DNA of 64,000 nucleotides, from positions 1,426,001 through 1,490,000 of the forward strand of contig NZ_CP066171.1 in assembly GCF_028867705.1 (NCBI RefSeq), read 5' to 3'. The stretch's first letter is position 1. Each line of letters begins with the position of its first letter. This document shows, piece after piece, positions 3,292 through 63,240 of the stretch. Under the pieces are notes generated by a model, which was given only the letters and a program-made list of their open reading frames with translations, ran no database searches and had not been told where the DNA came from. The position numbers and the translations under genes are program-made. This DNA comes from Thermoleophilum album. Lineage in GTDB: Bacteria; Actinomycetota; Thermoleophilia; Solirubrobacterales; Thermoleophilaceae.

Positions 3292-4395
3292 ATGCGCGCG
3301 ATCGCACTAACTACGAGCGACGAGAGGCCGACCACGATCCGCGTACCCGGCCGCGTCAACCTGATCGGCGAGCACACCGACCACAGCGGTGGTCTCGCCT
3401 TGCCGTTCGCGACCGACCGGGCTCTCTGGCTCAGTGTCCGTCGCCACAGGCTCGAGACGCTCACGATCGCGTCGAGAGCGACCGGCGAGCGTGTCGAGCT
3501 CGCTGCGCTCGGCGTCGACAGCGAGGGCGCGAGCGACGAGCGGCCGCTGTCTTTGTGCCGCACGGCCGCCGCCTGCTGCGAGGTCGCCCGCGAGCTCGGC
3601 GTCGTACGGGCGGCAGGCACGGTCGAGATCGCCGGCGACCTGCCGATCGGAGCCGGGCTCTCGTCGTCGGCCGCCCTCTGCTTAGGACTGATCGTCGCGG
3701 TCTGCGTCCTCGGGGGGCAATTGCCCGGCGACCCGCTTGCGGTGGCGCGCGCGGCCGCGCGCGCGGAGCGCGCAGCCGGCGGCGCCGGGGGCGGCCTCCT
3801 TGACCAGGTCGCGATCCTCGGTGGTGCGCCGGGCGCCGGCGTGCTCTGCGACTTCGCCGCCGATCGCTACCTGCGCGTGGGCATCGCGCTCGAGGACGCG
3901 CGCCTCGCCTTGCTCGACAGCGGCGAGCGCAGAGCGCTCGGCAGCTCGCCCTACGCGGAGCGTGTCGCCGAGTGCGCGGAAGCGGCGCGCATGCTCGGCG
4001 TCGCGCCGCTCGCGAAGGCGCCGCTCGACAGCTGCCTGCGCCTGCCGAACCGCTGGCGCCAGCGGGCCGCGCATGTCGTCGCCGAATGCGAGCGCGTTCG
4101 CCTGGCCGTCGACGCGCTCCGCCGTGGCGACATCGGCCGCCTCGGGCGTCTTCTCGACGCCTCGCACCGCAGCCTGCGCGACCTCTTCAACGTCTCGACG
4201 CCGGCGGTGGAGCACACCCGCGCGCTCGCGAAAGCGCACGGGGCGCTCGGCGCCCGGCTCGTCGGAGGCGGCTTCGGCGGCATGGTGTTGGCGCTCTTCC
4301 CAGCCGACGCCGCGCTGCCGACAGGTGCGCTCCCCGTGCGACCCGACTTCGGACTCACGATCGACGGCACGGCGCCGTGGCCGCGCTTTTGCTAA
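3292..4395 (+). CDS. galK: Galactokinase (GHMP kinase)
   Basis: Phosphorylates galactose to galactose-1-phosphate in the Leloir pathway. The 367-residue product has the galactokinase signature near its N-terminus, RVNLIGEHTDHSGG, with His where most family members have Tyr. The GHMP ATP loop PIGAGLSSSAALCLG and the C-terminal glycine motif GGGFGGMVLAL follow. Length is normal for GalK (about 380). The ATG at 3292 is chosen because homology starts within 20 residues of it. No galT or galE is visible beside it. The Tyr-to-His change sits at the sugar-binding loop, so a related sugar kinase activity cannot be excluded. Confidence 0.85.
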   Translation: MRAIALTTSDERPTTIRVPGRVNLIGEHTDHSGGLALPFATDRALWLSVRRHRLETLTIASRATGERVELAALGVDSEGASDERPLSLCRTAAACCEVARELGVVRAAGTVEIAGDLPIGAGLSSSAALCLGLIVAVCVLGGQLPGDPLAVARAAARAERAAGGAGGGLLDQVAILGGAPGAGVLCDFAADRYLRVGIALEDARLALLDSGERRALGSSPYAERVAECAEAARMLGVAPLAKAPLDSCLRLPNRWRQRAAHVVAECERVRLAVDALRRGDIGRLGRLLDASHRSLRDLFNVSTPAVEHTRALAKAHGALGARLVGGGFGGMVLALFPADAALPTGALPVRPDFGLTIDGTAPWPRFC

Positions 4396-4406
4396 TAAAC
4401 CGCCTC

Positions 4407-4511
4407 GTGGATCGTCGTCTGGCGCAGAAGAACATGCGCAGCGCGCTGATCGCGTTGGCGATCGCGCTGTTGATCTTCGCCGCTTCGTGGATCGCGGGGC
4501 TCACCTACTGA
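4407..4511 (+). CDS. 34-aa single-span membrane peptide, oxidase-linked
   Basis: A tiny open frame starting GTG with product VDRRLAQKNMRSALIALAI and so on to a C-terminal WIAGLTY. A short basic head is followed by one hydrophobic helix of about 20 residues. Its stop overlaps the next start (TGATG at 4509-4513), which is the main argument that it is translated. By position and shape it resembles the very small accessory subunits found in cytochrome oxidase loci. I recognise no named family. Alternative: the ATG at codon 10 would leave a 25-residue peptide. Confidence 0.6.
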   Translation: MDRRLAQKNMRSALIALAIALLIFAASWIAGLTY

Positions 4512-4762
4512 TGGCCGCGAAACGGCAACCGCGCAAGGTGTTGGACCCCGCGCCACCGCGGGGCGAGCTTGTTCACATGCCCGAGCCGTCGTACCTCCCG
4601 GTGGTGACGGCGGCTGGCATCGCCCTGATCCTCGTTGGTCTCGTCTTCTCTGTCATCGTCTCGGCAATCGGCGCGGTCGTGACTGCGATCGCCACCGCGA
4701 TCTGGATCGGCAAGGTCCGTCGCGAGATGGCGGAACTGCCGCTCGAGCACGACCATCACTGA
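4511..4762 (+). CDS. Cytochrome c oxidase subunit IV-like small membrane protein
   Basis: 83 residues: a basic, proline-rich head, then HMPEPSYLPVVTAAGIALI, two adjacent hydrophobic helices (about residues 28-50 and 52-68), and a histidine-ended charged tail (EHDHH). The HMPEPSYLP entry into the first helix is typical of small subunit IV-type proteins in actinobacterial and related oxidase clusters. It would be an accessory or assembly subunit of the aa3-type oxidase encoded from 5610 onward. It is coupled to the 34-residue peptide by an overlapping stop/start. A leftward CBS gene separates this pair from coxB, so the pair must have its own promoter or read through from galK. Confidence 0.7.
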   Translation: MAAKRQPRKVLDPAPPRGELVHMPEPSYLPVVTAAGIALILVGLVFSVIVSAIGAVVTAIATAIWIGKVRREMAELPLEHDHH

Positions 4763-4771
4763 GAGCGCGCG

Positions 4772-4810
4772 AGCGCCGCTGCCGCCGCGAGAGGACGGCG
4801 CGGCGGCGCT
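4772..4810. terminator. GC hairpin between convergent genes
   Basis: Inverted repeat AGCGCCGC / GCGGCGCT with extra complementary bases inside, lying between two convergent genes. There is no T-tract, so this is a candidate bidirectional terminator rather than a classical one. Confidence 0.35.
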
Positions 4811-4870
4811 GCTCAGCAACGACGCGGTCCCGTCCCTGCGGCGGCGGACTCTGTCAGTGCCTTCGAGCCC

Positions 4871-5302
4871 CTAGCTGGCGTTCACCGATTCGCGCCGCCA
4901 TCCCGGCAACTCGCAGGCGGCACCGTCGGTCACCCACGCGCGCACGATGTCGCGCATCGAGATGATGCCGGCAAGCTCGCCGCCGTCCACTACGACGAGA
5001 TGCCGGAAGCCGCCGGCGATCATCGCTTCGGCGGCACGCTCGAGCGACCAGTCGGCAGCGGCGAACGTCAGGTCGGACGAGAGGTGGTCGGCGACGATCT
5101 CGCGATCGGGATCCTCCCCACGACCGATCGAGATCAAGAGATCGCGCTCGGTGAAGATTCCGTAGCCCGGCTGGTCGGGATCGACGACCACCGCAGCCCC
5201 GACGCGACGCTCGGCCATCAAACGCGCAGCCTCGCGCAGCGTGTGGCCGGGACCGACGGTCGCAACCACGCTCGTCATCGCTTCGCTCACTCTCACGCTC
5301 AC
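4871..5302 (-). CDS. CBS-domain pair protein
   Basis: 143-residue soluble protein made of two CBS repeats (about residues 5-62 and 70-128). Visible marks are VSEAMTSVVATVGPGHTLREAA, VVDPDQPGYGIFTERDLL and the second-copy GGFRHLVVVDGGELAGIISMRDIV. Paired CBS modules bind adenosine nucleotides or S-adenosyl ligands and act as energy sensors; no catalytic domain is attached. The start is a GTG behind GAGGAG. It lies divergent from the oxidase operon and a role in sensing energy state is only an inference. Confidence 0.88.
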   Translation of the reverse strand: MSVRVSEAMTSVVATVGPGHTLREAARLMAERRVGAAVVVDPDQPGYGIFTERDLLISIGRGEDPDREIVADHLSSDLTFAAADWSLERAAEAMIAGGFRHLVVVDGGELAGIISMRDIVRAWVTDGAACELPGWRRESVNAS

Positions 5303-5609
5303 TCCTCCTCTGCGCGCTGTTGCCGCGTCTTGCGCTCCTCCGCGGCGACGGGTCGCATTAGTGCGAATCGTTGCTTGCCGATCCTACCGCGTCATGCGCC
5401 CGTTGCCCGCACCTCCGACCGCCCTTCGTCCCCACCTCCGGCCATCGGTTCCCGCCCGCAGCGCAGCCGGCCGGCCGAATCTCCGCAGCGAGCCGACCGA
5501 ACCCCACGGCCCCCACGGCCGGCCCGCCTTAGAACACCGGCGCACCGGCCCTTCCCCAAACGCCGTCGGAGCGCATAGACTCAACGCGTGCTCCGGAGGG
5601 AGGAGGCAG
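5303..5609. promoter_or_regulatory. Divergent intergenic region before coxB (307 nt)
   Basis: Gene-free stretch between the leftward CBS gene and rightward coxB. It contains a perfect 14-nt inverted repeat, TCGCATTAGTGCGA, at 5353-5366, a plausible operator half-way between the two starts. A strong ribosome site GGAGGGAGGAGG sits just before coxB. I cannot assign -35/-10 boxes with confidence and see no coding or structural RNA signal. Confidence 0.4.
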
Positions 5610-6392
5610 GTGCGTAGGCACCCGATTCTGCAGATGTTCGCTATCGGCGTCGTCGCCGCCGCTGTGATCACGGCGCTGGCGCTGGCGATCGACTGGTTCC
5701 CCCCGGCGGCCAGCACGGCGGCCGACAAGATCGACACGCTCTACGACGTCGTCATCCTCTGCTCGATCCCGATCTTCGTGCTGGTAATGACGATCGCGAT
5801 CTATTCGGTCGTCAAGTTCCGTGCTCGGCCGGGACACGAGGGCGACGGCGCACCGCTCCACGGCAACACCCAGCTCGAGCTGCTGTGGGTCGCGATTCCC
5901 TTCGTGATCGTCTCGGCGCTCGCCGCCTACGCACTCGTGGTGCTCTCCGATATCGAGGCGAAGGAGCCGGATGCGTTGCCGGTCGCCGTCACCGCCCAGC
6001 AGTTCACCTGGACTTTCGGCTATCCGCAGGCGGGGGGTGCAACGAGCACCGAGCTCGTCTTGCCACGTGGGCGCCAAGCGGTGCTGCGGATCCGCACTCG
6101 CGACGTCATCCATTCCTTCTGGGTGCCTGCGATGCGGATGAAGCAAGACGCCGTTCCCGGCCTCACGACCGAGGTTCGGATCACACCGACGCGCGAAGGT
6201 ACCTACCCGCTCGTCTGCGCCGAGCTGTGCGGCGCCGGGCACGCGACGATGCGGCAGACGGTGCGAGTGGTCGCTCCCGAGCGCTTCCAGGCTTGGCTTC
6301 GCCGGCTCGGCGGCGGAGCGACGGCGAGCCGCGGCGCGACGCCGGGAGCGGCCTCCGCTGTCGAAACGGCGTCAGCGAGCGGACGCAGTTAA
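5610..6392 (+). CDS. ctaC: Cytochrome c oxidase subunit II
   Basis: Carries the CuA centre that accepts electrons from cytochrome c. Two N-terminal membrane helices (about residues 8-28 and 45-70) precede a periplasmic cupredoxin domain. The CuA ligands are all present: HSFWVPAMRMKQDAVPG gives the first His, and CAELCGAGHATM gives the two Cys, the second His and the Met. At 260 residues it lacks the fused cytochrome c domain of caa3-type subunit II, consistent with a separate cytochrome c at 11.1 kb. The GTG at 5610 follows GGAGGGAGGAGGCAG. First gene of the run ctaC-ctaD-(tandem stress-like)-ctaE. Confidence 0.96.
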   Translation: MRRHPILQMFAIGVVAAAVITALALAIDWFPPAASTAADKIDTLYDVVILCSIPIFVLVMTIAIYSVVKFRARPGHEGDGAPLHGNTQLELLWVAIPFVIVSALAAYALVVLSDIEAKEPDALPVAVTAQQFTWTFGYPQAGGATSTELVLPRGRQAVLRIRTRDVIHSFWVPAMRMKQDAVPGLTTEVRITPTREGTYPLVCAELCGAGHATMRQTVRVVAPERFQAWLRRLGGGATASRGATPGAASAVETASASGRS

Positions 6393-6416
6393 CGCAGAGG
6401 GATCGGAGGGAAGGAC

Positions 6417-8387
6417 GTGGCGGTAGCAGTCGAGCGCAAGCCAAGCAGGGGTGACACCGACAGCTCCCGTGCCGACGGCAGGCGGGGCGGCTGGCGCCGG
6501 CGGCTCGCAGCGCCTGGCTGGTGGCGCGCCCTCGCCGCGATGCCTGTCGGCTTCCTGGTCGCGTTGGGGCTCGTCGCTGCCGTGCGCGCCGCCTACGGCT
6601 GGCACCCGACCGTCAAGTGGGAGGCCGTCACTACCGTCGCATTGATCGCCGTGCCGCTGGCCTTCCTGGCCGGGATCGGCTGCTTCGACTACTGGCTGCG
6701 CTGGGCGATCGGGGCGCGCACTGAAGATGACGACCACTCGGGCCACGGCGCCGACAGTTGGCGCGACTACTTCCGCGTCAACACCGATCACAAGGTAATC
6801 GGCATTCAGTACATCTGCACCACCTTCGCCTTCTTCGTACTCGGTGGCTTGATGGCGATGTTGATGCGCGCCGAACTGCTCGCGCCGGGCGAACAGCTCG
6901 TCGACGCCAACACCTTCAACGGACTCTTCTCGGTCCACGCCTCGTTGATGATCTTCCTCTTCATCATTCCTGTGTTCGCTGGCATCGCCAACTACGTGGT
7001 GCCGCTGATGATCGGCGCACCCGACATGGCGTTCCCACGCCTGAACGCGCTCTCTTACTGGCTTTTGCTCGTCGCCGGGGTGATGATGGTGCTTAGCTAC
7101 GTCGCGCCCGGCGGCCCGTTCGCGACCGGCTGGACGGCTTACGCGCCGCTCTCGGTCGATGTGCCCCTCGGCCAGCAGTTCTTCGCCCTAGCCGTTCAGT
7201 TCGCCGGCGCCTCGTCGATCGCCACCGCCCTCAACTTCTTGGTCACGATCATTACGATGCGTGCGCCGGGCATGACTTTTTGGCGCATGCCGCTTCTGGT
7301 GTGGGCGAACTTCACCACCTCGCTCTTGGTCGTCATCGCCACACCGTTCATCGCCGCATCGCAGTTCTTCGTGTTGTTCGACCGTGCACTCGGAACGCAC
7401 TTCTTCACGCCCCAGCTCGGTGGCGACGTGCTCATGTACCAACACGTGTTCTGGTTCTACTCCCACCCTGCCGTCTACATCATGATGCTGCCCGGCTTCG
7501 GAATCGTCAGCGAGGTGATCTCGGCGCACGCGCGCAAGCCTGTTTTCGGCTACAAGATGATGGCCTACGCGCTGATCGCGATCGTCGTGCTCGGCTTCCT
7601 GGTGTGGGCACACCACATGTTCGTGTCGGGGATGCAAGCGTGGATACGCATCCCGATGATGCTCACGACGATGCTGATCGCCGTGCCGACGGGCATCAAG
7701 ATCTTCAACTGGCTAGGAACGCTGTGGCGCGGCGTTATCCACCTGCGCACGCCGTTGCTCTTCGCTCTCGGGTTCATCACGATGTTCACGCTCGGAGGAA
7801 TCAGCGGCGTGACGCTGGCGATCGTGCCGTTCGACATCCACGTCTCCGACACCTACTACGTCGTCGCGCACATCCACTACGTGTTGTTCGGCGGGTCGGT
7901 CTTCACGATCTTCGCGGGCATCTACCACTGGTTCCCGAAGATGACGGGCCGGATGTACGACGAGACGCTCGGCAAGATCCACTTCTGGCTCTCGTTCGTG
8001 TTCTTCAACCTGACCTTCGGGCCGATGCACCTCCTCGGCATCGACGGGATGCCGCGCCGCGTCGCCGACTACGCGTCCGAGTACGCCACGCTGAACGCGA
8101 TCGTCTCGGTGTCGGCGTTCATCTTCGGTCTGTCGTTCCTCGTCTTCCTCTACAACATGATCGTCAGCTGGCGCTACGGGCCTGTTGCGCCTGCCAATCC
8201 GTGGAAGGCGCACACGCTGGAATGGATGGTTCCCTCGCCGCCGCCGAAGTTCAACTTCGTGGAGGTGCCACGCGTGGTGGGCGGCCCGTACCCCTTCGGT
8301 CTCAAAGGCGCCCAGCACGCCTACTTCCCGAGCCGGCGGCCGGCACCGGTCGCGGCGGGTGGCGGTGCCCAGCCGCCCGAGCACTGA
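6417..8387 (+). CDS. ctaD: Cytochrome c oxidase subunit I, A2-type
   Basis: Catalytic heme-copper subunit that reduces O2 and pumps protons. Conserved marks include the low-spin heme His in FSVHASLMIFLF, the CuB ligand and Tyr cross-link region WFYSHPAVYIMMLPGFG, the CuB His pair in VWAHHMFVSGM, and the heme ligands in YVVAHIHYVLFGG. YSHPAVYI replaces the HPEVYI of A1 oxidases: the D-channel Glu is absent and a YS pair stands in, the hallmark of A2-type enzymes. The protein is long (656 residues), with about 100 extra N-terminal residues holding two additional hydrophobic helices. GTG start 24 nt after ctaC. Confidence 0.96.
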   Translation: MAVAVERKPSRGDTDSSRADGRRGGWRRRLAAPGWWRALAAMPVGFLVALGLVAAVRAAYGWHPTVKWEAVTTVALIAVPLAFLAGIGCFDYWLRWAIGARTEDDDHSGHGADSWRDYFRVNTDHKVIGIQYICTTFAFFVLGGLMAMLMRAELLAPGEQLVDANTFNGLFSVHASLMIFLFIIPVFAGIANYVVPLMIGAPDMAFPRLNALSYWLLLVAGVMMVLSYVAPGGPFATGWTAYAPLSVDVPLGQQFFALAVQFAGASSIATALNFLVTIITMRAPGMTFWRMPLLVWANFTTSLLVVIATPFIAASQFFVLFDRALGTHFFTPQLGGDVLMYQHVFWFYSHPAVYIMMLPGFGIVSEVISAHARKPVFGYKMMAYALIAIVVLGFLVWAHHMFVSGMQAWIRIPMMLTTMLIAVPTGIKIFNWLGTLWRGVIHLRTPLLFALGFITMFTLGGISGVTLAIVPFDIHVSDTYYVVAHIHYVLFGGSVFTIFAGIYHWFPKMTGRMYDETLGKIHFWLSFVFFNLTFGPMHLLGIDGMPRRVADYASEYATLNAIVSVSAFIFGLSFLVFLYNMIVSWRYGPVAPANPWKAHTLEWMVPSPPPKFNFVEVPRVVGGPYPFGLKGAQHAYFPSRRPAPVAAGGGAQPPEH

Positions 8388-36931: not shown

Positions 36932-39175
36932 TCAGGCAGCGGCAGCCGCAGCCGCAAGCTCACTCTCGCGCGGGCGAACGACCTCGACGCGGTCGCGTCC
37001 GGCGCGCTTGGCGCGATAGAGAGCACCGTCGGCGGCCCGGAAGAGGCGGTCGAAGTCGAAGACCTCGTCGGGAACCGTCGCGGCGACACCGAACGACATC
37101 GTCACGGCGAGCCCTTCGATCGCCTGGCGCGCCACGGCAGTCCGCAACCGCTCGGCGATCCCCGCTCCCGCCTCCTCGTCGACGCCCGGCAGCAGGATCA
37201 CGAACTCTTCGCCGCCGAGGCGGTAGACGGAGTCGAAGGCGCGCAGTTCGTCGCGTAGACGTTGCGCCACCTCGGCGAGCACAGCGTCGCCGCGCGCGTG
37301 GCCGTGCTCGTCGTTGATCAGCTTGAAGCGATCGATGTCGCCGACGATCAGCGCGACCTGTTGCTCGCCGGCACGGCTGACGGCGACGAGCTCGGCGATC
37401 TTGGCCTCGAGCGCACGGCGGTTGAACAGACCGGTGAGCTCGTCGATCACCGCCACCGAGCGGTGGTCGATCGCCGACGAGCCGATTACCGAGCCCACCA
37501 GGCAACCGGTGCCGAGCAGTGCGAGCGGTATGGCGACTAGCACCGGCTCGGCGAGTGCTCGCTCGGCGTCGCAGATCAACGCCGCCCCGATGATCACGAA
37601 CACGCTGAAGAAACCTGTCCACATCGCCCCCCGCCGCGGCAGGACGATCGCGTAGATGCTCGCGAAGGGCACCAGCACGATCAACGAATGGAGCGGCTTG
37701 CCCTCGACGAAGAAGTAACCGCAACCCATCACCGCTTGGGCGATCGTCCACCCGATGATCAGCGGGAACTCGGGGCGCCGCATGTGCCGCAGGCGTGCCG
37801 AGAGGATGCGGAAGGGCGGCGCCACGACGAGAACGGCCAGGACCGGCGCCCACCCGTACCACGGCGCGGCGAAGATCACCGCCGCCGTTCCGGAAAGCCA
37901 CGCGAGCGCCGAGACGCGCTCCAAGCGGTCGCGCATGTCGAGCATGTGCTCGCGCTCAAGTTCGTCTTGCACGAGCCAGTTTCCGTGCTCGGCGCGTGCC
38001 TGCTCGATCTGCTCGTGAAGCAGACCCTGGTCGCGCGCGCTCGGTGGAACCTGTCCGCTGGGTGCTGCCAGCCCCGACGGTTCCACCTTGATTTCGACAT
38101 CCGTCCGGCGTCGACGGGGAAGGTTGGCCTCGGGGCAGGTGCCCGACGAGCACACGCGATCGCGACCCCGTCGCTTGGCTGCGTACAGCGCGGCGTCGGC
38201 GGCCCGGAAGACTTCGTCGAAGTCGAACGCGTCGCTGCCAGCGCAGGCGACGCCGAACGACATCGTCACGCGCAAACCTGCGAGCGGTGCCGAACGCACG
38301 GCTTGGCGCATCCGCTCGGCGAGTGCCACCGCGTCCTTCTCGCATGCGTCCGGAAGGAGGACCAGAAACTCCTCGCCGCCGAAGCGGTACAGCGGCGTGT
38401 ACGGGCCGAGCTCGGCGCGCAGCCGCTCCGCCACCTCGCGCAGCACCTGATCGCCGACGTCGTGTCCGTGCGTGTCGTTGATGAGCTTGAAGCCGTCGAG
38501 GTCGCCGACGATGACAGCGACGCGGCGTCCCGACCCGGCGATCAGGTGGTCGAGCTCGGCGAGCCGCGGAATCAGTGCTGCACGGTTGAACGCTCCGGTC
38601 AGGCGATCGACGATCGCGCTCGCTCGCGACGCCTGGTCGGCGCTGCGTCCGAGCGAGAACAGCATCGTCAAAGCCCCGAGCACGCCCATCGGGTAGACGG
38701 CGTACGGTGGTTCGCTAAGGACGAGGTGGGGATCGGCGGCAAGCGCTGTGAGGGCGATGATCACCCACGTGGCGAACATGCCGGCGACGGCGACGCGGGT
38801 CGGGAACACCGCACTGACGAGAAGGGTGGGGAGCGCGAGCGCCGGTAGCAGGTGAAGCGACGGGCCATGGGCCAGGACGATGGCCGCAGCGGTCGCGAGC
38901 TCGGCCGCGAGCCACGCGCCGGCGAGCAAAAGCTCGGGGCGGTTCGACCGGCGCAAGCGACGCTGCGCGGCGAAGAAGATCGCCGCTGCAGGCGGCACCG
39001 GCAGCAGGTAGAGCGGGCCGAACGTCGGAAGCCCGATAAGCGCCACCGCCAGGAACAGCAACACCGACACTCGCGACGCGAAGCGCATGCGGCGGTTGAC
39101 GTCGATCAGCCGGCCGCGCTCGGCGTCGTTGCGGCACAGGAAGGTGCTAACGCGATCGAGGAGGCGGGAGAGCAT
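36932..39175 (-). CDS. Tandem membrane diguanylate cyclase (TM-GGDEF-TM-GGDEF)
   Basis: 747 residues forming two consecutive membrane diguanylate cyclases. First half: a soluble head, about six helices (residues 35-180), then a GGDEF domain (187-345) with GDLDGFKLINDTHGHDVGD and active-site GGEEF near 266. A 70-residue polar linker follows. Second half: a new set of five to six helices (about 420-570) and a second GGDEF domain (575-735) with GDIDRFKLINDEHGHARGD and GGEEF near 654. Both signatures are intact, so both halves should make c-di-GMP from GTP. Only the second has an inhibitory RxxD (RAFD) five residues upstream. No sensor domain beyond the membrane parts. Leftward and monocistronic. 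Confidence 0.9.
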   Translation of the reverse strand: MLSRLLDRVSTFLCRNDAERGRLIDVNRRMRFASRVSVLLFLAVALIGLPTFGPLYLLPVPPAAAIFFAAQRRLRRSNRPELLLAGAWLAAELATAAAIVLAHGPSLHLLPALALPTLLVSAVFPTRVAVAGMFATWVIIALTALAADPHLVLSEPPYAVYPMGVLGALTMLFSLGRSADQASRASAIVDRLTGAFNRAALIPRLAELDHLIAGSGRRVAVIVGDLDGFKLINDTHGHDVGDQVLREVAERLRAELGPYTPLYRFGGEEFLVLLPDACEKDAVALAERMRQAVRSAPLAGLRVTMSFGVACAGSDAFDFDEVFRAADAALYAAKRRGRDRVCSSGTCPEANLPRRRRTDVEIKVEPSGLAAPSGQVPPSARDQGLLHEQIEQARAEHGNWLVQDELEREHMLDMRDRLERVSALAWLSGTAAVIFAAPWYGWAPVLAVLVVAPPFRILSARLRHMRRPEFPLIIGWTIAQAVMGCGYFFVEGKPLHSLIVLVPFASIYAIVLPRRGAMWTGFFSVFVIIGAALICDAERALAEPVLVAIPLALLGTGCLVGSVIGSSAIDHRSVAVIDELTGLFNRRALEAKIAELVAVSRAGEQQVALIVGDIDRFKLINDEHGHARGDAVLAEVAQRLRDELRAFDSVYRLGGEEFVILLPGVDEEAGAGIAERLRTAVARQAIEGLAVTMSFGVAATVPDEVFDFDRLFRAADGALYRAKRAGRDRVEVVRPRESELAAAAAAA

Positions 39176-39267: not shown

Positions 39268-40323
39268 CTAGGTGCCTGTCGTCGAGCCGCTCGTCCCGCC
39301 GTCGTCGCTGCGCTCGGTTGGCGTGGGCGACACCGCGCCGCCCGTGCGCCCTGTGTCCCGCTGGCGCTCGCCGCTGTCGCGCTCGCGGCGCAGAGAAGCC
39401 TCCGGCTCGAGGTGAATGAGCACGTCGGCGTTACCGAGCCGCGCTTGGATGCGCCGTTCGAGGTCGTGTGCCAGCTCGTGGGCACGCTCGAGTGTCGTGC
39501 CGCTGCCGAACTGCACGTGCATGTCGATGTAGCGGCGGCTGCCAGCGCGGCGAGCGCGGAGTTTGTGGAAGCCAAGCACCTCGCGCGCCTCGTGTCCCTC
39601 GACCGCGGCGCGGATCGCAGCAAGCTCGTGATCGGGCAGGGCTTCGTCGACGAGCACTCGCGACGACTGCGTAACGAGACGCGCGCCCGCCACGACGATG
39701 ACGGCGGCGACGAGCAGAGCACAGATCGCATCGAGGGCGTAGACACCGGTCACCTCGACCAAAACGAGCGCGACCAGGACACCCGCCGAGGTGAGCGCGT
39801 CGGTCGAGAGGTGCGCGGCGTCCCCGGCCAGGGCGGGCGACTCGGTCTCGGCCGCACGCCGGTACAGGAAACGCGACACGATCACGTTGACTACGAGCGA
39901 CAGCGCCACCACGGCGATACCCACGCCGAGAAGCTGCAGCTCGCTGCCCGCCACCAGCCGGTGCACGGCCTCCCAGGCGAGGATCGCGGCGGCAGCCAGG
40001 ATCAACAGCCCTTCGGTCGCCGCGGCCAGGTGCTCGACCTTCTCGTGTCCGTACGGGTGGCTGCGGTCCGGCGGCTGCGCTGCTTTGCGGACCGAAACAA
40101 ACGCGACGACCGATGCCAAGAGGTCGATCGCGGAGTGGGCCGCCTCGGTGAGGATCGCCACCGACCCGGTGAGAAAACCGGCAACTAGCTTGAGCGCGAC
40201 GAGCAGGGAGTTGGAAGCGATCGAGAGCGCGGCCGCAGCTGCCTTGCGGCGGGCGTCACGGTCACGGTCGCGGCGAGCGGGGATGCGGGAGGCGCGCGCC
40301 GTCTCGTTAGCCGCAGCGACCAT
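39268..40323 (-). CDS. Cation diffusion facilitator (Zn/Mn/Fe efflux)
   Basis: Exports divalent metal ions in exchange for protons. 351 residues with six helices; the two metal-binding HxxxD sites are in TEAAHSAIDLLAS and GDAAHLSTDALTS. The histidine-containing RSHPYGHEKVEHLAA follows the second helix. A cytoplasmic C-terminal domain (YIDMHVQFGSGTTLERAHELAHDLE) matches the family, and the last 35 residues are Ser/Gly/Thr-rich. It is 6 nt after rdgB, same direction. The ion is not decided by the sequence. Confidence 0.93.
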   Translation of the reverse strand: MVAAANETARASRIPARRDRDRDARRKAAAAALSIASNSLLVALKLVAGFLTGSVAILTEAAHSAIDLLASVVAFVSVRKAAQPPDRSHPYGHEKVEHLAAATEGLLILAAAAILAWEAVHRLVAGSELQLLGVGIAVVALSLVVNVIVSRFLYRRAAETESPALAGDAAHLSTDALTSAGVLVALVLVEVTGVYALDAICALLVAAVIVVAGARLVTQSSRVLVDEALPDHELAAIRAAVEGHEAREVLGFHKLRARRAGSRRYIDMHVQFGSGTTLERAHELAHDLERRIQARLGNADVLIHLEPEASLRRERDSGERQRDTGRTGGAVSPTPTERSDDGGTSGSTTGT

Positions 40324-59434: not shown

Positions 59435-60214
59435 GTGGCTTGGACCGAGAGCTACTCGGCGTCGTTCAGCGCTCGCCACGAGCGCGCCGAGACCGACAGC
59501 GCACAGCGCACGCTTGACGACCTCGAGCGCTTCCGCCTCGAGCTGGCCGAGCTCGGCTTCCGCACTCCCGGCGAGATCGCCATCGTTTTCCACCCCAACG
59601 AGCTGTCCCTGCTCGCCGCCCAACCGGCGCTCGCAGCGTGGCGAGCGGCGCAGACCCGCCATGCCCGCCGCTATCTGGCGGGCTGGGCAGCGAGCGGCGA
59701 GCTGCACCTGCTCGCTGCGCCTGCGCTGCGCCGCCGGGCCGCAGCGACACCGCTCTCGGAACGGGCGTTGCGCGCCACCGCTCGCCGCCTCTACGTGCAG
59801 GCGGCGGCCGCGGCCAGCGGCTGGCCTCTGCCGCCCCCGCTCACCGCCACGAGCGGCGGGGCGCTGCGCCGCCTGGGCTGGCTGTTCGAGGGTCCAGCCG
59901 CCGTGCTCGCCGGCCAGAGCGACGGACTCCTCGCTGCCCTCGCCAGTCGTTTGCGCGACGGACCCTTCGACGCGCTGCCCCCCTCCACGCGCGACGCCTA
60001 CCTCGGTGGTTTCGCGCTGTGCGCGACGCTCGAGGAGCAGCGCGGCCGCGCCGCGGTGGCTTCGCTCGTTCTCGCCGCCTGTCGTAGCGAGCCGCGCGGG
60101 CGCGGCGAGCACCTCGTGGCGCGCGCGTTCTCGCGACCGCTCGGCGAGGTGCGCCGCCTCGTGGCGCGCTTTCTCGACGAGCTGCCGCGACGGCTGGCGC
60201 GGCTCGAGCGCTAG
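59435..60214 (+). CDS. Protein of unknown function
   Basis: 259 residues from GTG. The opening AWTESYSASFSARHERAETD, a helix (RTLDDLERFRLELAELGF), IAIVFHPNELSLLAAQP and a long Ala/Leu/Arg helical body give a consistent protein look. LHLLAAPALRRRA and SERALRATARRLYVQ suggest a helical bundle. It contains no zinc or other motif I can use. I associate the SASFxARH opening with uncharacterised actinobacterial proteins. Its stop overlaps the stop of the convergent c-di-GMP gene by the 4-nt palindrome CTAG. Confidence 0.65.
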   Translation: MAWTESYSASFSARHERAETDSAQRTLDDLERFRLELAELGFRTPGEIAIVFHPNELSLLAAQPALAAWRAAQTRHARRYLAGWAASGELHLLAAPALRRRAAATPLSERALRATARRLYVQAAAAASGWPLPPPLTATSGGALRRLGWLFEGPAAVLAGQSDGLLAALASRLRDGPFDALPPSTRDAYLGGFALCATLEEQRGRAAVASLVLAACRSEPRGRGEHLVARAFSRPLGEVRRLVARFLDELPRRLARLER

Positions 60215-63200
60215 CGACCGCGCTCGGCGAGAACCTCGAGCAGCGCCTCAACGACGCGCGGGTCGAACTGCGTCCCGGCGTTGCGCGCGAGCTCCTGCCG
60301 CGCCACTTCGACCGGTAGTGCCGGGCGGTAGGGGCGGTCACTCGTCATCGCGTCGTAGGCGTCACAGGCAAGCACGATGCGCGCGCCGATCGGGATCTCC
60401 TCGCCCGCGAGGCCATCGGGGTATCCCTGGCCGTCCCAGCGCTCGTGCTCGTGGCGAACGATCGGCAGCACGTCGCGCAAAAACTCGATCGGGCGCAAGA
60501 TGCGCTCGCCCGCGATCGTGTGCTTCTCCATCTCCCGCCGTTCGGCGTCGGTAAGCGGCCCGGGCTTGTTGAGGATCGAGTCGGGTACAGCGATCTTGCC
60601 GATGTCGTGGAAGATCGCGCCGAGCCGCACGCGCTCCACCTCGCGCTCGTCGAGGCCGAGCTTGCGCGCCACCGCCTCGGCGTGCTCGACGAGCGAACGC
60701 GAGTGCTCGGCGGTGTAGGAGTCCTTGGCTTCGAGGGCGGCGGCCAGCGCCTCGGCGGTTCCCGTGTAGGCGCGGTCGAGACGCTCGTAGAGCAGCGCCG
60801 AGCGCAGCGACGCGCCGAGCAGGTCGGCGACCGCTTGCAGGGCGAGCGCGTCGTCCTCGTCGAAAGCGCCGGCGGCGCGTTCGGCGACGAACAACGCGCC
60901 CCACAGCTCTCCCCCCGCCCACACCGGCGCCGCTGCCTGCGAGCGGGCGGCGTCCCAGTCGGCGACCGTTTCGAGCGCGAACTCGTTGCCCTCGGCGCGG
61001 GCGTCGCTGGCGACGAGCGCCTGCCGTTCGCGCAGCGCCCTGCCGACAATCCCCGCATCGCGCGGGATCCGTGGCTGCCCGCCCGCCAGCGCCGCCGGTC
61101 GACCGCGGGTGGCGACGATCGACAGATCGCCGTCGTCGGTGAGGCGCAGCACCGCGCAGGAGTGGAAACCGAACGCTCGATGCAGTTCGCTCGCCGCGGT
61201 CTCGACGATCCTGCCCGGCTCGACCATCGCCGCCAGCCGCGCTCCTAGCTCGGCAGCGAGCGCTAGCTGCCGGGTGCGCTTGCGCAGCCGAACTGCTTGT
61301 TCGGCGACGTCGTCGCTGAAAGCTGGTTCGAGGGACGGCCTGTGCGACATCCGTCGCACAGCCGGGAGCGGCGAGTCGTCGAAGGCGAAATCGAGCGGCA
61401 CCTCGCCAGCGGCAACGGTTGCGCCACGCCCGAGCCGCAACTTGCCGTACAGCAGGGCGCGATCGGCACGAGCGACGAGGTCGGACGCCGTCTCGCCCGG
61501 GCGCCACTCGGCGAGCCCCACCGTCATTCCCACCTTTTCCCCGAGTTTGAGCTGGGCGAGCGCTGCCTCGACACGGTCGCGAGCGCGCCGCGCTGCGCTG
61601 CGCGCTTCGCTTTCGGTCGCGTCGACGACAACTAGCGCGAACTCGTCACCGCCGTAGCGGCCGACGAAGTCGAAACCACGGACAGACTGCCGCAGGGCAT
61701 AGCCCACGGTGCGCAGCACCTCGTCGCCGACAAGGTGGCCATGCCGCTCGTTCACCAGCTTGAAGTGGTCGAGGTCAATCAACAGCAGCGACAGCCGATG
61801 GCCGCTGCGGCGGCAGCGCTCGACTTCGCGGCCGAGCGCTTCGTGCAAGGCGGCGTGGTTGAGACAGCCCGTCAGCCCGTCGGTGCGGGCGACGAGAGCG
61901 AGGCTTTCGTGAGCAGCGGCATTGCGGCAAGCGACCGCCGCGAGCTCGGCGAACGCCTCGAGCAAACGGACCTCGTCGCGGCCGAGACGGGTGTGGCGTC
62001 GAAAGCCGACGCTCAGCACTCCCCGCAAGCGCCCGCCCCAGCGCATCGGCACCGACACACCGGCCCGCAAGTCCGAGAACACGTCGCGCGGTGCGCCTAC
62101 CTCGGTCGGGTAGTCGTGCGTGACGAGCGGCTCCCCGCTCTCTGCGACGCGTCCCGCCGCGCCCTCGCCGACGGCTAGCTGCAGCCCGATTGCCTCGGGC
62201 GGCAGTCCGTGGGCAGCCTCCAGCACCAGCGCCGGCACGGGCTCACCCTGTCTGTCGAATCCGGGGGAAACCGCGGGCAGAGGTCCACCGAAGCCGCTGT
62301 CGAGCTCGCTGTGTCGATCGTCGACCGTTGCGGTGAGGCGGAACACGACCGCTGTGTCGGCGTCGAGGATCGCTGCCGCTTCGCGACAGATGCGGGTAAG
62401 CACACGCGGGACGTCGAGGCTTTCGTTGAGAAGCTTGGCCGCTCGCAAGAGAGCCGAGAGGCGGGCGATCTCGCGCGCTCGCTCGGCGTTTCGGCTGGCT
62501 TGGCCGAGGACCGTGTCAAACATGTCAGCAAGCTCGCGCGCGAGCGCGACGGCCGACACCTCGTCGACCGTGCCGGCATCGACGAAGAGAAAGACCTGGG
62601 GCCGCCCCGGCTCGGCGCGCCCGATCGGTACCGCCAGCAAGCGCGCATCCCCGCCGAGAGCCGCATGGACACCTAAAGTCGCGGTGAGCACGCGCCCCTC
62701 ACCGGCAAGAAGCAAGCGAGGCTCGAGCAGCCCGTCGACAATGGCCAGCGCTCGCTGCGCAGCGTCGCCGGCGAGCGAGACATGGTCGCTGGCGGGTGAC
62801 GACGCCAGCACACGCCACTCTTCGCCCCCCGGGCTGACAGCGACAAGCCCCGCCCACGCCCCCGCGAAGAGATCGCGCGCCACCTCGACGAGGCTGCCGC
62901 GAAGCGCCACGGGATCCTCACCCGCACAGCCGATGAGGCGCCGGATGGCTTTGAACACCGTCGCTACCGCCCCGCCCGAGCGAGCCTCCCGCGGGCGTGC
63001 TCGGTTGTCCTCGGCGGTGGGAACGGCGCCCTGCGAAGAGCTGTCCCATCCGGGCTGCGGGGCCTTGGCGCTGGGCCGCAATGGTGTGCCAAGGTTGCCG
63101 CCCAGGGGTGGTGTAAACGCTTCGCCGTTGGCCACGTCGTGAGCAGGCGATTCCGGGCGCGAACCGCCGGGCGGCTCTCGGGACGCTTGCGCCATGGGGT

Positions 63201-63240
63201 ACAAGTCGGCAATTACCCCAAGCACTTGACGGCGAGTCAT
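60211..63240 (-). CDS. GAF-GAF-GGDEF-GAF-HD-GYP cyclic-di-GMP enzyme
   Basis: 1009-residue soluble regulator. Order: disordered head (1-95), GAF-like (about 100-250), GAF (275-440), GGDEF (450-605), GAF (655-820), HD-GYP (830-1005). The cyclase site is intact (YGGDEF near 530, LLIDLDHFKLVNERHGH), with an inhibitory RGFD five residues before it. The phosphodiesterase site is intact (FHDIGKIAVPDSILNKPGP near 880; HEHERWDGQGYP near 930). Both synthesis and breakdown of c-di-GMP in one chain are therefore possible, with the GAF domains as ligand inputs. Start at ATG 63240, or ATG 63195 just after an inverted repeat. Confidence 0.92.
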   Translation of the reverse strand: MTRRQVLGVIADLYPMAQASREPPGGSRPESPAHDVANGEAFTPPLGGNLGTPLRPSAKAPQPGWDSSSQGAVPTAEDNRARPREARSGGAVATVFKAIRRLIGCAGEDPVALRGSLVEVARDLFAGAWAGLVAVSPGGEEWRVLASSPASDHVSLAGDAAQRALAIVDGLLEPRLLLAGEGRVLTATLGVHAALGGDARLLAVPIGRAEPGRPQVFLFVDAGTVDEVSAVALARELADMFDTVLGQASRNAERAREIARLSALLRAAKLLNESLDVPRVLTRICREAAAILDADTAVVFRLTATVDDRHSELDSGFGGPLPAVSPGFDRQGEPVPALVLEAAHGLPPEAIGLQLAVGEGAAGRVAESGEPLVTHDYPTEVGAPRDVFSDLRAGVSVPMRWGGRLRGVLSVGFRRHTRLGRDEVRLLEAFAELAAVACRNAAAHESLALVARTDGLTGCLNHAALHEALGREVERCRRSGHRLSLLLIDLDHFKLVNERHGHLVGDEVLRTVGYALRQSVRGFDFVGRYGGDEFALVVVDATESEARSAARRARDRVEAALAQLKLGEKVGMTVGLAEWRPGETASDLVARADRALLYGKLRLGRGATVAAGEVPLDFAFDDSPLPAVRRMSHRPSLEPAFSDDVAEQAVRLRKRTRQLALAAELGARLAAMVEPGRIVETAASELHRAFGFHSCAVLRLTDDGDLSIVATRGRPAALAGGQPRIPRDAGIVGRALRERQALVASDARAEGNEFALETVADWDAARSQAAAPVWAGGELWGALFVAERAAGAFDEDDALALQAVADLLGASLRSALLYERLDRAYTGTAEALAAALEAKDSYTAEHSRSLVEHAEAVARKLGLDEREVERVRLGAIFHDIGKIAVPDSILNKPGPLTDAERREMEKHTIAGERILRPIEFLRDVLPIVRHEHERWDGQGYPDGLAGEEIPIGARIVLACDAYDAMTSDRPYRPALPVEVARQELARNAGTQFDPRVVEALLEVLAERGR
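63196..63219 (-). promoter_or_regulatory. 6-12-6 inverted repeat upstream of internal ATG
   Basis: GGGGTA and TACCCC are separated by 12 nt, adjoining the in-frame ATG at 63195. If that ATG is the true start, the repeat lies in the 5' leader as an operator or hairpin. Otherwise it is coding. Confidence 0.35.

Follow-up and report, generated by a model that had tools for sequence, protein, structure and literature searches.

Diguanylate cyclases couple two molecules of GTP that are held by two facing GGDEF domains, and these domains have a fold in common with those of class III nucleotide cyclases. Cph2 of Synechocystis carries two GGDEF domains in one polypeptide and is a soluble, GAF-based photoreceptor with an EAL domain. 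Among membrane-bound enzymes, SadC and ImcA of Pseudomonas consist of six transmembrane (TM) segments followed by a GGDEF domain, with a single such unit per chain and pairing of identical chains; cryo-EM has shown ImcA to be a 6TM homodimer (PMC10904736). In product inhibition of diguanylate cyclases, the RxxD motif (I-site) of one GGDEF domain becomes cross-linked with a secondary site of its partner domain (PMC8041772). PleD and DgcR, which are homodimeric and under I-site control, combine GGEEF catalytic residues with RxxD and have two identical I-sites per dimer.

The mammalian transmembrane adenylyl cyclases (6TM-C1-6TM-C2) are duplicated and fused 6TM cyclases with diverged halves, in which one active site has turned regulatory; their bacterial 6TM progenitor type is Rv1625c. 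The resulting pseudo-heterodimer derives from a bacterial-type 6TM cyclase whose gene was doubled and joined (PMC9552081). The same review states that bacteria are not known to have a fused class III cyclase and that the reason for duplication and fusion of a 6TM cyclase, including any advantage of the fused state, is an open question for the animal enzymes (PMC9552081).

Here we describe a gene of Thermoleophilum album in which two 6TM-GGDEF units are joined in one chain. It lies within a 64,000-nucleotide stretch of DNA, referred to here as the window. The gene has an ATG start and a single 747-aa frame with no internal stops (Table 1). Pfam GGDEF (PF00990) was matched in two stretches of the protein with a total of 269 bits against a cut-off of 23.8. 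In the combined Pfam and NCBIfam assignments the two GGDEF domains were found along with membrane parts belonging to no named family, and the TM part had zero matches to the Pfam sensor-domain families (MASE types, 7TMR, MHYT) at E values up to 1. All catalytic domains detected with these two collections were of the GGDEF type, with no class III nucleotide cyclase domain among them. Each half begins with an N-terminal helix, followed by six TM segments and then a GGDEF domain with an intact GGEEF motif. The count of six TM segments is based on family-averaged hydropathy for both units and on an AlphaFold2 model of unit 2, which displays six long helices and then GGDEF with pLDDT mostly >90, from an alignment that is deep in the GGDEF part only. 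An RxxD motif five residues ahead of the GGDEF motif is present in unit 2 only, the corresponding residues of unit 1 being GPYT. The original prediction of two membrane cyclases in one chain, each with its own GGEEF and with RxxD confined to the second half, thus describes the protein correctly. It also proposed a 70-residue polar linker; a linker exists, but only about 51 residues separate the homologous units, or 75 if the distance is measured from GGDEF1 to TM7.

Table 1. Features of the tandem diguanylate cyclase locus, numbered from the first letter of the window.
Feature	Position	Strand	Basis
Fused [6TM-GGDEF]2 diguanylate cyclase gene, 747 aa	36932..39175	-	ORF; Pfam GGDEF x2
Unit 1 membrane domain, 6 TM, about residues 33-176	38648..39079	-	Hydropathy; model
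GGDEF1 domain, residues 181-345, catalytic residues intact	38141..38635	-	Pfam; dN/dS 0.09; residue check
Unit 1 GGEEF motif, residues 266-270	38366..38380	-	Sequence
Unit 1 primary I-site position, residues 257-260, GPYT, without RxxD	38396..38407	-	Sequence; 66-protein comparison
Inter-unit linker, residues 346-396; 354-387 modelled as disordered	37988..38140	-	Model; alignment of halves
Unit 2 membrane domain, 6 TM, residues about 421-568; TM6 helix continues into GGDEF2	37472..37915	-	AlphaFold2
GGDEF2 domain, residues 569-735	36971..37471	-	Pfam; AlphaFold2
Unit 2 primary I-site, RAFD, R645-D648	37232..37243	-	Sequence; 66-protein comparison
Unit 2 GGEEF motif, residues 654-658	37202..37216	-	Sequence
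Upstream neighbour, 351-aa membrane protein, cation-diffusion-facilitator transporter by eye	39268..40323	-	Adjoins cyclase gene; syntenic in sister species

The layout of each unit matches that of SadC and ImcA, a likeness that covers domain order. The GGDEF domain of SadC was among the top sequence matches, and ImcA was the nearest membrane cyclase in a fold search; the difference is that two units here occupy one chain. Cph2 shares the presence of two GGDEF domains, but its sensory parts are unrelated and it has no duplicated 6TM-GGDEF unit. Two 6TM-catalytic units joined in one chain through duplication and fusion are also what characterizes the mammalian adenylyl cyclases, which belong to another catalytic family and make another product, so that the window protein, with its GGDEF domains, is an analogue of that type and not a member. 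No named family or paper dealing with a duplicated 6TM-GGDEF fusion was found in the open-access literature. A metal-linked function for the cyclase, considered on account of the transporter-like gene upstream, was dropped, as single-unit relatives do not adjoin such a gene.

Alignment of the two halves against each other, a check proposed along with the original prediction, gave 41% identity across 334 aa (E=6e-71) and covered the whole unit, with 29% identity in the TM part and 55% in GGDEF. The TM parts alone scored 154, whereas none of 300 shuffles exceeded 47, so the membrane part was duplicated as well. Since the halves are homologous from end to end, TM segments included, an entire 6TM-diguanylate cyclase gene was duplicated and its copies fused. 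Its ancestor would have been an ordinary 6TM-GGDEF gene whose product acts as a homodimer.

The original prediction implied that this layout was unique, which it is not. A profile of tandem proteins was searched against samples of the order (n=120) and the phylum (n=400). Full-length matches were obtained in genus g19 of family f4, where each of 5/5 genomes had 7 to 16 strong matches, in two genera of family f2 (genomes G480 and G502), and in genus g48, which belongs to another family of the class. At least 66 [TM-GGDEF]2 proteins were read within the class, a few of them truncated or frame-broken. In the phylum sample, full-length matches were confined to the window and g48, a count that is a lower bound because scoring was limited to the top two candidates of each genome. 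A contig scan with the 747-aa protein, which covered little beyond the window's own phylum, yielded a distant Paraburkholderia GGDEF protein as its sole match, and among the 5000 matches listed in a plasmid search no record covered 80% of the query at a single location. Comparable tandem layouts may occur in other phyla.

Phylogenetic analysis placed the window units in a clade with widespread single-unit 6TM-GGDEF proteins of the order (support 100/100). In the best tree, unit 1s of the window, the sister species (G001), G480 and G502 form one clade (72/97.6), the unit 2s of the same four genomes form a separate clade (60/92), and the two together are sister to single units (76/99.7); the exact order of these branches is moderately supported. 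A recent duplication within the genus was suggested by a first tree, built without the fusions of the other family, in which the halves joined at 100/99. This reading was overturned once the orthologous f2 fusions were added, and a genus-level duplication was rejected by the AU test (p=0.00076). Also rejected were trees with all tandems in one clade (p=4e-58) and with the window's family and g48 together (p=0.0006). These rejections imply either several fusions or a single fusion followed by several reversions to single units, and repeated fusion appears more likely. The tandem 6TM-GGDEF fusion is thus probably an old, repeatedly evolved design that parallels the animal adenylyl cyclases, the same duplication-fusion step having been taken in bacteria by related diguanylate cyclases, probably more than once.

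The two units differ consistently in the I-site. RxxD/E is present in 57/58 single-unit relatives, but in the window's family it occurs in 0/7 of unit 1 and 6/7 of unit 2, the remaining unit 2 having HALE; the one-sidedness is thus kept among orthologues. Across the 66 tandem proteins, 46 have the I-site in unit 2 only, 2 in unit 1 only, 5 in both and 13 in neither, counts that do not represent independent events because sequences within a genus are kin. A phylogenetically independent pairs test of unit 1 against I-site loss pointed in the same direction with too few pairs for significance. Tandems of g48 retained the I-site in both units, so a single I-site per chain holds as a tendency without being a rule. 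The opposite pattern, with the I-site confined to unit 1, is found at L064 2124-4160 (+) and L227 373-2550 (+).

Unlike the I-site, the catalytic residues display no asymmetry between units in the window's family. The catalytic and GTP-binding positions that were checked (metal D, FK, guanine N and D, GGEEF E and K723) are intact in 7/7 proteins for each unit, bar one F-to-L change in unit 2, and both units are apparently catalytically competent, as judged from these residues. In g19, an Arg resembling the PleD R390 secondary-site residue is found in unit 2 of 45/53 proteins and in unit 1 of 29/53, and the R727-equivalent phosphate-binding Arg is gone from unit 1 in most proteins. A secondary-site Arg in the helix before GGDEF was also considered as evidence for an intramolecular cross-link and was dropped after the position assignment failed.

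We hypothesize, with somewhat more conviction than doubt, that the protein is a covalent pseudo-heterodimer, in which both GTP half-sites and a single product-inhibition site are carried on one chain with two diverged 6TM inputs. The two 6TM domains would lie side by side, with their TM6 stalk helices paired, and GGDEF1 and GGDEF2 would face each other within the chain, each with one bound GTP, so as to build a single catalytic centre. Both half-sites would be used in every cyclase reaction, and both GGDEF domains would accordingly be kept intact. In product inhibition, the primary I-site on one domain would cross-link the other, such that a single copy would suffice, and this copy would be the one retained on GGDEF2. 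Fusion would force 1:1 pairing of unlike units, leaving the 6TM domains free to diverge and to feed two inputs into one output. This reading is favored because retention of both half-sites together with one I-site is what a within-chain pair would need. The protein differs from the PleD and DgcR dimers in having one I-site per chain, and from the mammalian adenylyl cyclases in that it has lost an inhibitory site while retaining both half-sites, whereas in the latter one active site turned regulatory. The built-in dimer envisaged in the original prediction is, we infer, the best available reading, although in the full-length AlphaFold2 model, likewise built on an alignment deep in the GGDEF part only, each GGDEF domain is modelled with confidence but their relative placement is not (pTM 0.39). 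We consider the odds to be even that the design of the mammalian adenylyl cyclases has arisen repeatedly in bacteria for c-di-GMP, in the form of an asymmetric covalent 6TM-cyclase pseudo-heterodimer with two intact substrate half-sites, one inhibition site, two different membrane receptors and one output.

Fused chains might instead dimerize with one another, GGDEF1 pairing with GGDEF1' and GGDEF2 with GGDEF2', to produce two catalytic centres, one inhibited and one inhibition-free. Such an arrangement would explain both intact catalytic domains equally well, and single-unit relatives are expected to be homodimeric, as ImcA is. Symmetric pairing of GGDEF2 needs both RxxD and the secondary Arg in unit 2, where the former is retained and, in g19, the latter as well; the bias of this Arg towards unit 2 is no less compatible with GGDEF2 pairing across chains than with GGDEF2 pairing to GGDEF1, and somewhat favors the dimer of fused chains. 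However, an inhibited centre beside an uninhibited one would render inhibition largely pointless, and the arrangement offers no reason for fusion of the units or for its recurrence. We regard it as rather unlikely, at something like one chance in a few.

It is less probable still, and in our estimation distinctly doubtful, that GGDEF1 has a regulatory role, binding GTP or serving as a scaffold, with GGDEF2 as the sole cyclase, pairing between chains. The lack of an I-site in GGDEF1 and of the phosphate-binding Arg in most g19 unit 1s would suit such a role, and degenerate GGDEF domains that act as GTP sensors are known (mentioned in PMC12943098). In the window's family, though, unit 1 retains GGEEF and the GTP-binding residues, and it is more strongly constrained than unit 2. 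Comparison with the syntenic gene of the sister species gave a dN/dS of 0.165 overall, with 0.09 for GGDEF1, 0.29 for GGDEF2 and 0.16 for the linker, making GGDEF1 the part under strongest purifying selection. The low values in the linker and both GGDEF domains signify that the linker stays in frame and that neither domain is decaying, and a degenerate GGDEF1 is disfavored by these values along with the retained residues.

The sister species used in this comparison (G001, locus L021) is the only further member of the genus for which a good assembly exists. Its halves are fused in frame likewise, at about 80% amino-acid identity, and its copy has a single one-base frame break located inside unit 1, just ahead of the first GGDEF strand. 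The likeliest cause of the break is an error in sequencing or a mutation of very recent date, because GGDEF1 there is still 88% identical. In a second genome of the species (G468, 72% complete) the locus is uncovered, with contigs that end on both sides, so the gene's absence from that genome carries no information. No stop codon separates the halves, the 747-aa frame being uninterrupted and the G001 break lying within unit 1, nor are the halves separate neighbouring genes in homologues, as the sister species and a second family carry the fused gene; an assembly error or a misread pair of neighbouring genes is ruled out by these fusions. A functionally meaningless fusion, whether by chance, of recent origin or through misassembly, is therefore very improbable and already largely refuted: the frame-broken sister copy and the uncovered locus of G468 might be cited for it, but that absence is uninformative, the fusion is kept in two species under purifying selection, orthologues exist in another family, and a recent origin was rejected by the AU test.

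As single-unit close relatives survive in neighbouring genomes, fused and unfused forms are directly comparable, and the one-sided loss of the I-site constitutes a natural test of how many inhibition sites are required per cyclase pair. Adjacent but unfused pairs of single-unit 6TM-GGDEF genes, with one orientation and some 80 bases between the two, are located in the same genome as the window (L044 2404-4887 (-)) and in the sister species (L050). The genes of these pairs are mutual close relatives and represent an unfused state that could precede such fusions. At L022, L055, L059, L072 and L228, fused tandem cyclase genes adjoin on the same strand, some of them overlapping, and constitute arrays of already duplicated genes in genus g19 and G502.

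Other c-di-GMP genes are present in the window and in relatives. A 1009-aa GAF-GGDEF-GAF-HD-GYP protein encoded at 60211-63240 (-) of the window brings together domains for c-di-GMP synthesis and hydrolysis, and 6TM-GGDEF-HD proteins occur in relatives at L028, L045, L078-L080 and L083. A 1523-aa frame at L025 of genome G032 (3762-8333 (-)) has the layout [6TM-HD-GYP]-[TM-HD-GYP]-[6TM-GGDEF]-[6TM-GGDEF], that is, two phosphodiesterase and two cyclase units (Pfam HD_5 x2 and GGDEF x2), with GC3 that is even throughout. Just downstream of the fused gene in the sister species, an ORF (L021 7267-7845 (+)) starts with short-period repeats of QARRDAR-type units.
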